Made by a program: the position numbers and the translations under genes. The notes under the pieces are model-generated. The model was given only the letters and a program-made list of their open reading frames with translations, was not told where the DNA came from and searched no databases. A stretch of DNA of 64,000 nt from Tupaia tana (lineage: Eukaryota; Chordata; Mammalia; Scandentia; Tupaiidae), in the NCBI GenBank assembly GCA_026018925.1, contig JAKSZU010000012.1, forward strand, positions 48,063,207-48,127,206, read 5' to 3'. Shown piece after piece: positions 1 through 64,000 of this stretch. Position 1 is the stretch's first letter; each line of letters starts with the position of its first letter.

Positions 1-48
1 TGGTGAACGCACGTGCCTATAGCGAAAAACCTCTCAAAAAAATCCTAA
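1..48 (+). mobile_element. SINE, long form, 3' end only
   Basis: Cut by the window edge: GGTGAACGCACGTGCC then TATAGCGAAAAACCTCTC and a short A tail. Confidence 0.8.
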
Positions 49-825
49 AAAATTAATAAACAAATAATAAGTAGCTGCTCAATAAGTGGTTTCTGTTACT
101 GGAGTGGATATGATAACAAGTATTAGGACCATCTATCTTAAATACAACAGAACAAAGAAGATAAAAGAAATGCAACTCATAAAAAAAAAAATGGAAAGTG
201 GTTCAAACCCACTTCATGGTAACAAAAAATCCCACTGATTTAATACAAAACAAATATCTCGTTCAAAGTAACACAGTCCGTGTGAGTGCTGCAATGGAGG
301 GAGAGGATTCTCATCTGCCCTGAGAGAGTATGACACTAAAGAATGAGTTTTGGAAGGACGGGTAGGAATTCTGTCAAAAGGCAGGAGATAGCACTGGAGG
401 GAGAGAGGACAATATGAACAAGCGTCTCTCCCTTCTCCTGTCAGTTCCCCAACCTCCCCCACGCTCACAGGAATAAAAATAAAATTAATCCCCTTCTCTC
501 ATCCAAGCATTTTCTCTTCGGCCTGATGGCTCTGTAATCCCCGCTCAATCCCCCTCACTCTCATCCCAGCCTAGCTTGTCTGCTCACAGCAAAGCAGCTC
601 TCCCTGGGAATGAATCTTCCCAGGTACGGAAGGGAGGGGAGGAAGAAATCTTAACTAGTAAGATATCTTATCAGTAAAGACAGAGGGATTCTCAATGAAA
701 GGGCAAGCTGATACATTAACATTTCTTTATGATCCAAAGCATCAGCACACAGTGGGGGCTCAGTCAATATTTACTGAATGAATTCAGTGTTAAAGAGAGG
801 TTCAGCCCCATATTTCTGATATACA

Positions 826-897
826 TAAGGTGGTCAGGAAAGTCATGATGCATTTTTGCATAGAAAAACACACCATGACTTTTCCAACCACCCAATA
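826..897. mobile_element. Mariner-type MITE, copy 1
   Basis: A palindromic element of about 72 bp with inverted ends GGTGGTCAGGAAAGTCATG and its complement, bounded by TA. Related copies are at 35484-35558 and 55220-55301. TA bounds and length fit a mariner/Tc1 internal-deletion derivative. Confidence 0.7.
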
Positions 898-1111
898 ATA
901 TTATAATATTATCCTGAGGAATTCTGATCTCATAGAGATCCTGGAACTTCCAGTAGGAAAGGAGGCCAAGGATAACTTTAGAACGCAGCAAAACACATGC
1001 TAGAACAAAGAAAAAACAATAAAGATCATACAAAATGCAGAGGGCAGCAGCCAAGATATGCTGGTGTGTGCTACCCACCCACGACGCTGACCAGAGACTT
1101 CTTTTTCTTGA

Positions 1112-1345
1112 ATGTTTGCCACAGAGCGTATGTCACCAGAGAGAGACAAAGAGAGGGGAGGTAAGAAATCACCCTCCCAGGGTGGATGGCCACACTGCCA
1201 TTCCTTCTTCTCTAGTCTCCTCTCAGGACTGGGCATGCACACACACATTCTTGACATAATTTTCACACTGCAGCGTTCAGGACTCGAACTGCAGATAGGC
1301 CATGTGGGATCCAGTGCCTTAACCACCATGCCACCTTCTGGCCCC
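1112..1345 (-). mobile_element. SINE, long form
   Basis: Diverged copy; the head complement ends CACCATGCCACCTTCTGGCC. The body is shortened. Confidence 0.8.
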
Positions 1346-1730
1346 TGGATTAGGGTTTTATGAGGGACAGGTAGTGAGTATCCCGCTGGGCATGATTTTA
1401 GGCAGAATTATGCAAAGTCCTGGCCTTAAAGAGTAAACACCAGACCCTTAGAGCTTAGTGGCTGAATTCATTGGTGTGTCCCAGGTGCTGGCTCTGGAGG
1501 GGCCAGTACACCCGCGTCATTTCTGGACCTTCGTAGATCAGTCTCCAAGGGGATACAAAGTCCTTGACCCCTGCACCATACCTCACTGGCTTCTCCACAC
1601 GCATCACTCTACCTCTGTGGGGTTTTTGATGTTTGTTTGTTTTGTTTTCATGAAATACATTTCTTTGTTTTCCTTATATAACTATGTACTCCTTATCTCT
1701 CTCGAGAGGGTTTTTGTTTGTTTGTTTGTT

Positions 1731-1960
1731 CCCCCCCCCCCCCCCCCCCCCCGCTGTGGGTGCACGTGCTCACCAGAGAGACAGCAAGAGAGAAATCACT
1801 CCCCCAGGGGGGATGGCCTTCTCCTTCATTCTCCTCTGGGATCTTGGGCATGCACGCACTTGTGTCCAGTGTGAATTTTAAGTGACCAGGTCCAGGACTC
1901 AAACCATCGTCCACTAGGTGGAAGTCCAGTGATGTAACCATTATGCCATCTGCTGGTCCC
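1731..1960 (-). mobile_element. SINE, long form, with poly(C) at its tail side
   Basis: Body and head are ordinary. Where the poly(T) complement of the tail is expected there are 22 C in a row (1731-1752), preceded by GTTT repeats. Confidence 0.85.
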
Positions 1961-2316
1961 ACCATGTACTCTAAAAGACCTGAACTCTCATATAATTCTG
2001 CCTCATGCTTGACACATACAGGTCAAAAAACCTGACTGGTGGTTGGCCAATACCATACATGCATGTATGCCTTGCACGTGTTGTATGTTTTATGATGGTT
2101 TATACATGAAGCACTCACCAATGTAGGAATTACTGAAAAAAATCTAGGATCCTCACTCAAGAGACTACAGACATCTGAAGAGATGAGGTTAGACTTGAAG
2201 CGGGATCTGAGATCAAGCATTACTTTACCTGGGACTCCCACCACCGCCATGCCTATCTCCCAGAGGCCAGCCCACAGGATCTTCCTGTGGCTGCTTCTAT
2301 CAGAAAAATGTGGGAC

Positions 2317-2586
2317 GGGAACCAGCACTTAGCGTAATGGCTATGTTGCTGGACTCCCACATAGTCGACCGCGGTTCGCGTCCCGGACCCGGTGGCTTAA
2401 AACTCACGCCGGGCGCGTGTGCGTGCGTGCCCAAGATCCCGAGAGGAGAATGGAGGAGAAGGGACTGCGGCGTGACCATCCCCCCTGGGGGGTGATTTCT
2501 CGCTTTCTGTCTCTATGTCTCTCTCTGTCTGTCTGGCGAACGCATGCGCCCTATAGCGAAAACCTCTCAAAAAAAAAAAGAAAAAA
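2317..2586 (+). mobile_element. SINE, long form
   Basis: Full length with most CpGs kept (GTCGACCGCGGTTCGCGTCC), so young. Another SINE starts 10 bp after its tail. Confidence 0.92.
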
Positions 2587-2595
2587 GTAAAATGG

Positions 2596-61684: not shown

Positions 61685-61926
61685 CTTATTTGTTTGTTAT
61701 AGGGCACATGTGCTTGAGAGACACAGACAGAGAGAAAATGAGAAATCACCCCCTGGGGGGGTAATTGCTGCACCCCAAACCCTTCTCCTCCATTCTCTTC
61801 TCAGAATTTTGGGTATACATGCACACATGCCTTGTGTGCTTTTCAAGCACTGGCTCTGGGACTTCAACCATGCAGTTGTCCATGTGGGATCCAGTTACCT
61901 TAACCTCCAGGCCACCTGCTGGCTCC
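61685..61926 (-). mobile_element. SINE, long form, diverged
   Basis: GTTATAGGGCACATGTGC start, ends CCACCTGCTGGCTCC. Confidence 0.82.
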
Positions 61927-62171
61927 ACATCTATCCACAAACAACTTTCTCCCACTGGTTCTGTTTTCCCCTCAAAAGATTTCTTTTATGTTAAACCTCT
62001 TCAAATTTGTAAAGACAAATTTTGTAACTTCTTTAAGTCCTATTTTCTCTAGTCCAATCCTTTCCCGTGGAGGTTATATTTGAACCCTCTCATTATACCA
62101 TATCACCAGGTTTTTGTTTGTTTGTTTGTTTATCTTAACTCTATACCTACCTATTTAAAATTTCATCCAGA

Positions 62172-62439
62172 GAGACCAGCAGTTGGCGTAATGACTATGT
62201 CTCTGGATGCCCACGTAGTTGACCGTGGTTCGCGTCCCGGACCGGGTGGCTTAAACTCACGCCAGGCGCGTGTGCGTGCGTGCCCAAGATCCCGAGAGGA
62301 GAATGGAGGAGAAGGGATTGCGGCGTGACCATCCCCCCTGGGGGGTGATTTCTTGCTTTCTATCTCTCTGTCTCTCTCTGCCTGTCTGGCAAGTGCATGC
62401 GCCCTATAGCGAAAACCTCTCCAAAAAAAGAAAAAAAAA
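62172..62439 (+). mobile_element. SINE, long form
   Basis: CpG-rich; TSD AAATTTCATCCAGA at 62158-62171 and 62440-62453. Confidence 0.95.
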
Positions 62440-62879
62440 AAATTTCATCCAGAAATAACCACAGTACACTGGAACATTTTGTTCTGAAAAGCTGTTACTT
62501 TTCATGACCTATAAACTGTATTTTCCTTAAATTTGTAACATCATTTTAGACCCATAAATTTGGTATCAAATAAAACCTTTATTACTTTTTATAAAACTTT
62601 TTATTCTTCCTGACCGTAATTTATTTTAGTAGCATAAATTTAAGACTTTTCATTTAACATTGATAAATAAGTTTACTGGTGAAACAAACTACAGACTTTA
62701 TTTTATTCATCATAGTTTTATGTTGTGGTCAAAAGTGCAATTGTATTTTATTGCCATTGTCCACATCGTTGGCAAAAATGTAAAATAAGACAAATTGAAG
62801 GCAGTCTGTGATAGGCCTCTTCTTTATGAATTGTTCCACTAGATAGAAATTTGCTCAATAATACCATCTGTGAGAAGGT

Positions 62880-63290
62880 GTGATAATTATGGCCTCTCCT
62901 GAATCCCATCTCCCTATCTCCATGTCTTTGTTAGTGTTCTCCCACTTGGCTCTAGGAAAGCCTATATGATTTGCTTTTGCCCATGGAACATTAGCAAGTG
63001 TATTGCAGGCATTTACAATTACACTTTGGGGCCTGTACTCTCTTACTGCACTGAGACCTCCCTATGAAAATGCTTAGGCTAGGATCACACCCTGTGAAGC
63101 AGAGAGAAGCCATCCAAGTTGAGACTCCCTAGATCAGCCACCCCAGTCAATCTGCCAACTGACTTCAGTCACATTAGTAACTTCAGGAAAACCAGTAGAG
63201 CCCAGCCCAGAATGCTGGACCAGAGAATTAAGGGCAAATAAATGATGCTGTATCGGTTATTACAAGTGAGGCCATTTGGGTAAGTAAGTC
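62880..63290 (+). mobile_element. Old LTR-like repeat
   Basis: TTTTGCCCATGGAACATTAG, GAGACCTCCCTATGAA, repeated AGCC/AGCCCAGCC blocks and AAATAAATGATG near 63234 follow the order of an ancient mammalian LTR-type repeat. I cannot name the family with certainty. Confidence 0.45.
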
Positions 63291-63359
63291 ATGAAGTCCC
63301 TTGAATGGACTAGTGCTTTATAAGAGATGGAAGAAACCAGCTTATGCCATTTTTCTCTT

Positions 63360-63535
63360 CTTTTATCATTTATTTCATTTTATTTATTATTATTATTATT
63401 ATTTAATTTGCTATAGGGCATGTGAGCTTTCCAGAGAGACAGAGAGAGAGAAACCAAGCCTCCAGGTCCAGGACTTGAACCACAGTAGGCCATGTGGGAG
63501 TCCAGTGCCTTAACGACCACACTACCTGCTGGCCC
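63360..63535 (-). mobile_element. SINE, short form
   Basis: TSD CCATTTTTCTCTT at 63347-63359 and 63536-63548. Confidence 0.92.
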
Positions 63536-63642
63536 CCATTTTTCTCTTTTGTCCCTTTCACACTGTAAAGACACAGCATTCAAGAAGTCATCTTGGATGC
63601 AGAGTCCAAAGAATTTACCAGAAACCAAACCTGCCAGCATCT

Positions 63643-63922
63643 TCTTTTTTTTTTTTTTTTTTTTTTTTTTTTTTTGAGAGGTTTTTGCTATAGGGCGCAT
63701 GCACTCGCCAGACAGACAGAGACAGAGAGATAGAAAGCGAGAAATCACCTCCCAGGGGGGATGGTCATGCCGCAATCCCTTCTCCTCCATTCTCCTCTCG
63801 GGATCTTGGGCACGCACGCACATGCGCCCAGCGTGAGTTTAAGCCACCGGGTCCGGGACTTGAAGCGCGGTCGATTACGTGGGAGTCCAGCGACATAGCC
63901 ATTACGCTAACTGCTGGTCCCT
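63643..63922 (-). mobile_element. SINE, long form
   Basis: 33-T tail complement; GCATCTT repeated on both sides. CpG-rich and young. Confidence 0.93.
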
Positions 63923-64000
63923 GCATCTTGAACTTATTCTTAGCCTCCAATTGGGAAGAAATAAATTTCTGTTCATAATAAATCAACAAGTCTTGAGAAG

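Follow-up and report, generated by a model that had tools for sequence, protein, structure and literature searches.

A dense tRNA-type SINE superfamily in two forms at a tree shrew OR10V1 locus, very probably one of the repeats already known from Tupaia

The stretch of DNA analysed in this study (64,000 nt, hereafter the window) contains an intact OR10V1 gene (20089-21057, minus strand), whose best named relatives are OR10V1 orthologues, and 96 loci of one superfamily of short interspersed elements (SINEs), which were located by nhmmer with two profiles at E<=1e-4. The SINE loci span 20,008 bp, which is 31.3% of the whole, with 56 loci on the plus strand and 40 on the minus strand; close to 90 copies or pieces on both strands had been expected by the original prediction, which was made from the letters, and the profile count bears this out. 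According to the best profile 75 loci are long-type and 21 short-type. The long profile was built from 51 full long copies and the short profile from 15 short copies, the latter being among the same copies that the short profile later found. The number 96 includes pieces and some insertions are split in two, so the true insertions are somewhat fewer; the near-full set comprises 64 copies (49 long and 15 short) and the remaining 32 loci are pieces. The long profile alone gave 89 matches at E<=1e-8, and neither profile matched anything in the reversed window, which served as control. Seven of the 96 loci scored below 30 bits, and two of these (22948-23018 and 50063-50124) overlap TC microsatellites.

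The long form has a core consensus of about 250 nt followed by poly(A), as seen in the 51 full copies, and the short form measures 140-174 nt and ends in a TAA/TAAA-rich tail. Both have in common a head of about 80 nt, and most copies also share a 3' part up to CCCTATAGCA; between the two, the long form carries roughly 90 additional nt. The near-full short copies (n=15) have one junction in common when aligned, and most of them the TAA-rich tail. The two consensuses thus confirm the two forms with a common head, their lengths and their poly(A) versus TAA-rich tails, as first described. With up to 2 mismatches allowed, 65 matches to the B-box pattern GGTTCGAGTCC were counted where 9.5 were expected; the A-box pattern gave a weaker signal (40 matches, 18.3 expected), and a few of the motif matches fall outside the SINEs. 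An internal RNA polymerase III (pol III) promoter with A and B boxes, by which a tRNA-type SINE (SINE2) is recognized, is therefore present as predicted. Exact-pattern scans of viral and genome contig collections returned 0 matches.

The A-rich tail and the target-site duplication (TSD) of a tRNA-type SINE were also found. At a TSD score of at least 10, duplications flank 14 of the 64 near-full copies compared with 12 of 627 mispaired control flanks, and at a score of at least 8 they flank 23 of 64 compared with 7.5% of the control flanks. Clear TSDs are 10-19 bp long and four of the 14 start at T/AAAA; among these 14, the one at 23338 is of low complexity and those at 36611 and perhaps 2317 possibly belong to the tail of an adjacent copy. 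A perfect 16-bp TSD flanks the copy at 24705-24961, which is cleanly nested in an L1-like fragment; when its flanks are joined the reading continues across the junction, VWHIYSMEYYSVIK. Another young long copy, 52355-52621, lies between pieces of a further long copy (52253-52353 and 52624-52681). The TSDs and the nesting fit target-primed reverse transcription driven by LINE-1 (L1), and the SINEs look, as far as their letters tell, pol III-promoted and L1-mobilised. The L1-like fragment itself occupies 23836-24700 and 24971 onwards on the plus strand and is interrupted by the young SINE; we take it to be the 3' part of L1 ORF2, a label that goes by resemblance to ORF2, as Pfam gave no match for two peptides of the fragment.

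Ten non-CpG positions of the head distinguish an old from a new type. All 33 young long copies have the new head (7-10 new letters), all 15 short copies have the old head (7-10 old letters), and the old long copies (n=16) are graded, from 10 old letters down to 2 old and 6 new. Divergence was measured against each copy's own consensus, and the main measure excludes CG/CA/TG sites: the median was 4.6% for young long copies (range 1.3-7.6%), 11.0% for short copies (2.4-19.0%) and 14.0% for old long copies (8.1-22.2%), and with only CG sites excluded the medians were 4.0%, 17.8% and 18.5%, respectively. The young/old split is based on divergence from one young-dominated long consensus and was made before head scoring, and the head strings were derived from these same copies, so that the age split and the head type are not independent. 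Head types and divergence together suggest a stepwise change of head in the long line over time, starting from the head of the short form, and a short form that belongs mainly to the older phase. Such a stepwise head succession in tree shrews was not found in the open-access literature, which was searched in part.

The tails of the two forms differ as well. Of the 15 short copies 10 contain AATAAA and 5 have TCTTT after it, compared with 6 and 1 of the 49 long copies; in 2000 segments of 110 nt outside the SINEs the frequencies were 10.1% and 1.55%, respectively. The signal pair is missing from the other 10 of 15 short copies. T+ SINEs are defined, in the accessible parts of PMC8466645 and PMC11240701, by AATAAA and a pol III terminator after it, both preceding the A-tail. 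With the pair in five short copies, part of the short form is, by this sequence definition, of the T+ kind, and the long form is not. A T+/T- split for tree shrew SINEs was not found in the open-access literature, searched in part. The near-full copies are listed in Table 1.

Table 1. Near-full SINE copies and the STX3-like exon; age labels of long copies come from divergence, head labels from head-type scoring, coordinates from the profile search.
Feature	Position	Strand	Evidence
young long copy	2317..2584	+	profile, head type
young long copy, abuts 2317..2584 copy	2592..2842	+	profile, head type
young long copy	8032..8262	+	profile, head type
young long copy	13029..13288	+	profile, head type
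young long copy	15100..15361	-	profile, head type
young long copy	16420..16689	+	profile, head type
young long copy	16698..16962	+	profile, head type
young long copy, 13-bp TSD	22239..22506	+	profile, TSD, head type
young long copy	23534..23787	-	profile, head type
young long copy in L1-like fragment, perfect 16-bp TSD	24705..24961	+	TSD
young long copy	25461..25724	+	profile, head type
young long copy	28580..28848	+	profile, head type
young long copy	31605..31869	-	profile, head type
young long copy	31921..32180	+	profile, head type
young long copy	32606..32871	-	profile, head type
young long copy, 13-bp TSD	34782..35045	-	profile, TSD, head type
young long copy	36367..36611	+	profile, head type
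young long copy, directly after 36367..36611 copy	36611..36869	+	profile, head type
young long copy, perfect 17-bp TSD	38193..38456	-	profile, TSD, head type
young long copy	42461..42721	+	profile, head type
young long copy	44902..45175	+	profile, head type
young long copy	48042..48301	+	profile, head type
young long copy, directly after 48042..48301 copy	48300..48565	+	profile, head type
young long copy	49117..49383	-	profile, head type
young long copy	49646..49912	+	profile, head type
young long copy	51365..51627	-	profile, head type
young long copy between two pieces of another long copy, 17-bp TSD with 1 mismatch	52355..52621	+	TSD
young long copy	53835..54081	-	profile, head type
young long copy	56269..56515	+	profile, head type
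young long copy	56784..57053	-	profile, head type
young long copy	60464..60730	+	profile, head type
young long copy, perfect 13-bp TSD	62170..62437	+	profile, TSD, head type
young long copy	63660..63923	-	profile, head type
old long copy, old head	1099..1349	-	profile, head type
old long copy, intermediate head	11513..11774	+	profile, head type
old long copy, old head	14587..14845	+	profile, head type
old long copy, old head	19604..19863	-	profile, head type
old long copy, mostly old head	21451..21715	-	profile, head type
old long copy, old head	29053..29331	-	profile, head type
old long copy, intermediate head	33581..33831	+	profile, head type
old long copy, old head	41175..41421	-	profile, head type
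old long copy, old head	42771..43004	+	profile, head type
old long copy, intermediate head	46975..47239	-	profile, head type
old long copy, mostly old head	53340..53601	-	profile, head type
old long copy, old head	54702..54941	-	profile, head type
old long copy, intermediate head	55695..55964	+	profile, head type
old long copy, mostly old head	60889..61156	-	profile, head type
old long copy, intermediate head	61158..61412	-	profile, head type
old long copy, old head	61676..61929	-	profile, head type
short form	14899..15055	-	profile, tail
short form, perfect 12-bp TSD	17242..17381	+	profile, TSD, tail
short form	23338..23511	+	profile, tail
short form, AATAAA then TCTTT	29636..29804	-	tail
short form	33837..34006	-	profile, tail
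short form	37602..37757	+	profile, tail
short form	41516..41664	-	profile, tail
short form, AATAAA then TCTTT then A-run	43802..43971	+	tail
short form, AATAAA then TCTTT then A-run	44215..44378	+	tail
short form, AATAAA then TCTTT then A-run	46800..46968	-	tail
short form, AATAAA then TCTTT	48839..48995	-	tail
short form, tail is AT microsatellite	57553..57718	-	tail
short form	59884..60041	+	profile, tail
short form	60084..60252	+	profile, tail
short form	63375..63539	-	profile, tail
coding part of STX3-like exon 1, 10 codons MKDRLEQLKA	6278..6307	-	GTGAGT donor adjoining

The OR10V1 protein is 97% identical to the Tupaia chinensis protein P0059 (265/273 residues), and the rest of the best 120 of 7984 matches, mostly near full length, reach 89% at most. 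With 8 of the 273 residues differing, the species is perhaps not that of the T. chinensis reference. P0059 leaves OR10V1 after residue 273 and passes into a syntaxin-like stretch (weak match to syntaxin-1A, E 0.0097), which is presumably STX3 exon 2; the exon MKDRLEQLKA is likewise presumed to be STX3 exon 1. OR10V1 lies upstream of this STX3-like exon on the same strand, and the T. chinensis model P0059 apparently runs OR10V1 into STX3, matching the order in the window. Gene order and OR10V1 identity agree in pointing to a tree shrew (Scandentia) as host.

The origin of the head and of the long body was approached by comparison with tRNA, 7SL RNA and Alu-monomer-like sequences. Among 27 tRNAs the short head matched Leu-TAA, Ser-GCT and Ser-CGA best, mostly through its A-box half, and for the long head the nearest were Arg-CCG, Gln, Asp and Gly. 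Building consensuses and aligning the head with tRNAs had been proposed as a check, and the Ser or Leu (class II) resemblance claimed for the short head did reappear; a class II tRNA is a tentative origin for it. The heads formed no cloverleaf. The folding z score was 0.3 for the old-type head with its CpGs restored and -2.5 for the new head, whose fold was not a cloverleaf. ARAGORN reported 0 tRNAs in the window, and Rfam gave 0 matches there at the gathering cut-off; at a relaxed E<=5 it gave 30 matches to unrelated families only, none of them a tRNA or a signal recognition particle RNA family. The score of the long body against the 5' end of 7SL RNA was reached by 8 of 1000 shuffles (5 of 500 in an earlier run), by which the 7SL similarity of the long body appears suggestive. 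No similarity was seen between the long body and an Alu-monomer-like sequence (score reached by 289 of 1000 shuffles) or at the 3' end (503 of 1000). Outside the SINE loci, a single weak match to the 5' end of 7SL RNA lies at 59462-59518 on the plus strand (nhmmer E 0.015); it resembles an old 7SL monomer of the Alu/B1 type and has A-box-like and B-box-like letters of its own.

Nishihara 2002 and Kriegs 2007 are reportedly the sources for the chimeric Tu types of tree shrew SINEs. Tupaia-specific tRNA-derived SINEs, named Tu-SINE2/3, make up 21% of the genome, and TUS and Tu-III are the majority of the transposable elements in PIWI-interacting RNA clusters, according to the accessible part of PMC4408798; the corresponding parts of PMC7245038 and PMC5575003 present the Tu types as chimeric, with 7SL-derived as well as tRNA-derived components. 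In our reading Tu-SINE2/3, TUS and Tu-III are names for the same elements. The SINEs of the window share with them the host order and the tRNA type, and probably the dominance, the 31.3% of this one window being in keeping with 21% of the genome. Given the host and the probable dominance, it is very likely that the window SINEs are the published Tu, TUS and Tu-III group and hence correspond to its Repbase entries. Therefore the superfamily is very probably a tree shrew repeat that is already known and ordinary for its host, and its density is explained without a new element: gene evidence places the window in a tree shrew, and a known repeat would account for the density. The earlier statement that no named family could be matched finds no support, because Tu types, TUS and Tu-III have been described (PMC4408798 and PMC7245038, as far as accessible).

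Several observations weigh against parts of this interpretation. The identity with TUS and Tu-III, very probable as it is, goes by host and description; the published Tu types are said to contain 7SL-derived parts (PMC7245038 and PMC5575003, in their accessible portions), whereas in the long form here the resemblance to 7SL is suggestive at most; and the coverage of this one window lies above the 21% given for the genome (PMC4408798, accessible part). Two SINE-derived reading frames had 79 and 37 protein matches, all on ENA, JGI or lgn contigs, which indicate no host. As to age and mobility, short and old long copies are nearly the same age when only CG sites are excluded, the least diverged short copy differs by only 2.4% (CG/CA/TG sites excluded), and 50 of the 64 copies show no TSD at a score of at least 10. 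TCTTT alone does not discriminate, being present in 7 of the 15 short copies and 22 of the 49 long ones.

The first two of these points would suit a tree shrew SINE family or form outside Repbase, distinct from TUS and Tu-III: the 7SL content expected of a Tu chimera (PMC7245038, in part) is doubtful here. A repeat filling 31% of the window could hardly have been missed by a library in which tRNA-derived Tu SINEs account for 21% of the genome, and we consider such a family improbable. The short form might also be no separate line, consisting instead of decayed, internally deleted long copies, for the head and the 3' part are common to short and old long copies and their divergences overlap. 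Decay would not readily give one junction in all 15 near-full short copies, mostly with a TAA-rich tail, nor AATAAA and then TCTTT in five of them, nor the perfect 12-bp TSD of the short copy at 17242, which makes this explanation very improbable.

Colugos (Dermoptera) carry tRNA-derived SINEs, and a host from this order had been suggested as possible by the original prediction, which gave a colugo CYN SINE as an example of a described family. The CYN SINEs are tRNA-derived and come from a related order, but their host is unlike that of the window. Colugos also belong to Euarchontoglires (PMC9141288, accessible part), which lends the idea some plausibility; nothing further in the analysis favoured it. 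The OR10V1 protein stands against it, with 97% identity to Tupaia chinensis and 89% at most to others among the best 120 of 7984 matches, although no named colugo protein was among the 120 matches listed. A colugo host was rejected on this gene evidence, which indicates a tree shrew, and a colugo CYN-type SINE is extremely improbable. A literature search on colugo and pangolin SINEs gave nothing usable for comparison.

Other genes and repeats were also noted in the window. A second intact OR10V-like gene (58183-59283, plus strand) has 69% identity to a different OR10V1 protein of Tupaia chinensis; together with two olfactory receptor-like fragments at 36908-37105 and 39045-39508 it makes up a small receptor cluster. 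An open frame of 145 amino acids at 17899-18333 (plus strand) matches the J chain of immunoglobulins in Pfam (PF15097, E 7.9e-72) and J chains in the PDB (best E 4.3e-79), and comes in one uninterrupted piece; it is probably a processed retrocopy of JCHAIN. A direct repeat of about 224 bp (26510-26730 and 27503-27725) has two units that are 96% identical and lie 993 bp apart, with no obvious long terminal repeat ends. A small element has three copies (829-916, 35489-35572 and 55219-55301), two of which are mir-548-like in Rfam below the gathering cut-off; perhaps it is a mariner-type miniature inverted-repeat transposable element similar to MADE1. A possible further interspersed repeat lies at 8288-8500, where 8341-8400 matches 35321-35262 inversely.

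The SINEs of the window, which we assign to the Tu group, may have spread as follows. Each copy would be, or derive from, a pol III transcript started internally by the A and B boxes, and this non-coding RNA would be copied to DNA by the resident L1 enzyme, with copying primed on the A-tail at a nick and leaving the short TSD (10-19 bp in clear cases). In the short form the AATAAA repeats and the TCTTT terminator could allow the RNA to be terminated and then polyadenylated (T+ route), whereas the long form, without the signal pair, would rely on an A-tail that is encoded in the element itself (T- route). One head is common to the oldest long copies and the full set of 15 near-full short ones; the long line may then have swapped its head stepwise and made the most recent wave. 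We tentatively propose, with more doubt than confidence, that T+ (short) and T- (long) lines arose from a common head and that the T- line overtook the T+ line through stepwise head replacement. This succession of T+ by T- would apparently be an undescribed switch between two proposed priming routes.

Compared by description with the T+ SINEs in the accessible parts of PMC8466645 and PMC11240701 (B2, Dip, Ves, Can, C, Eri-1, Tal and the EreA_0TD subfamily of Ere), the short form likewise has a B box, a pyrimidine-rich stretch, AATAAA repeats, TCTTT and an A-run. As in Ere, the signals occur in only part of the tree shrew superfamily. In the horse Ere, by the accessible part of PMC11240701, the T+ subfamily is the recent winner, whereas here it would be the T- line. 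If the T+/T- split and the head succession hold genome-wide, the tree shrew SINEs and Ere would offer a natural comparison of which priming route wins, and why.

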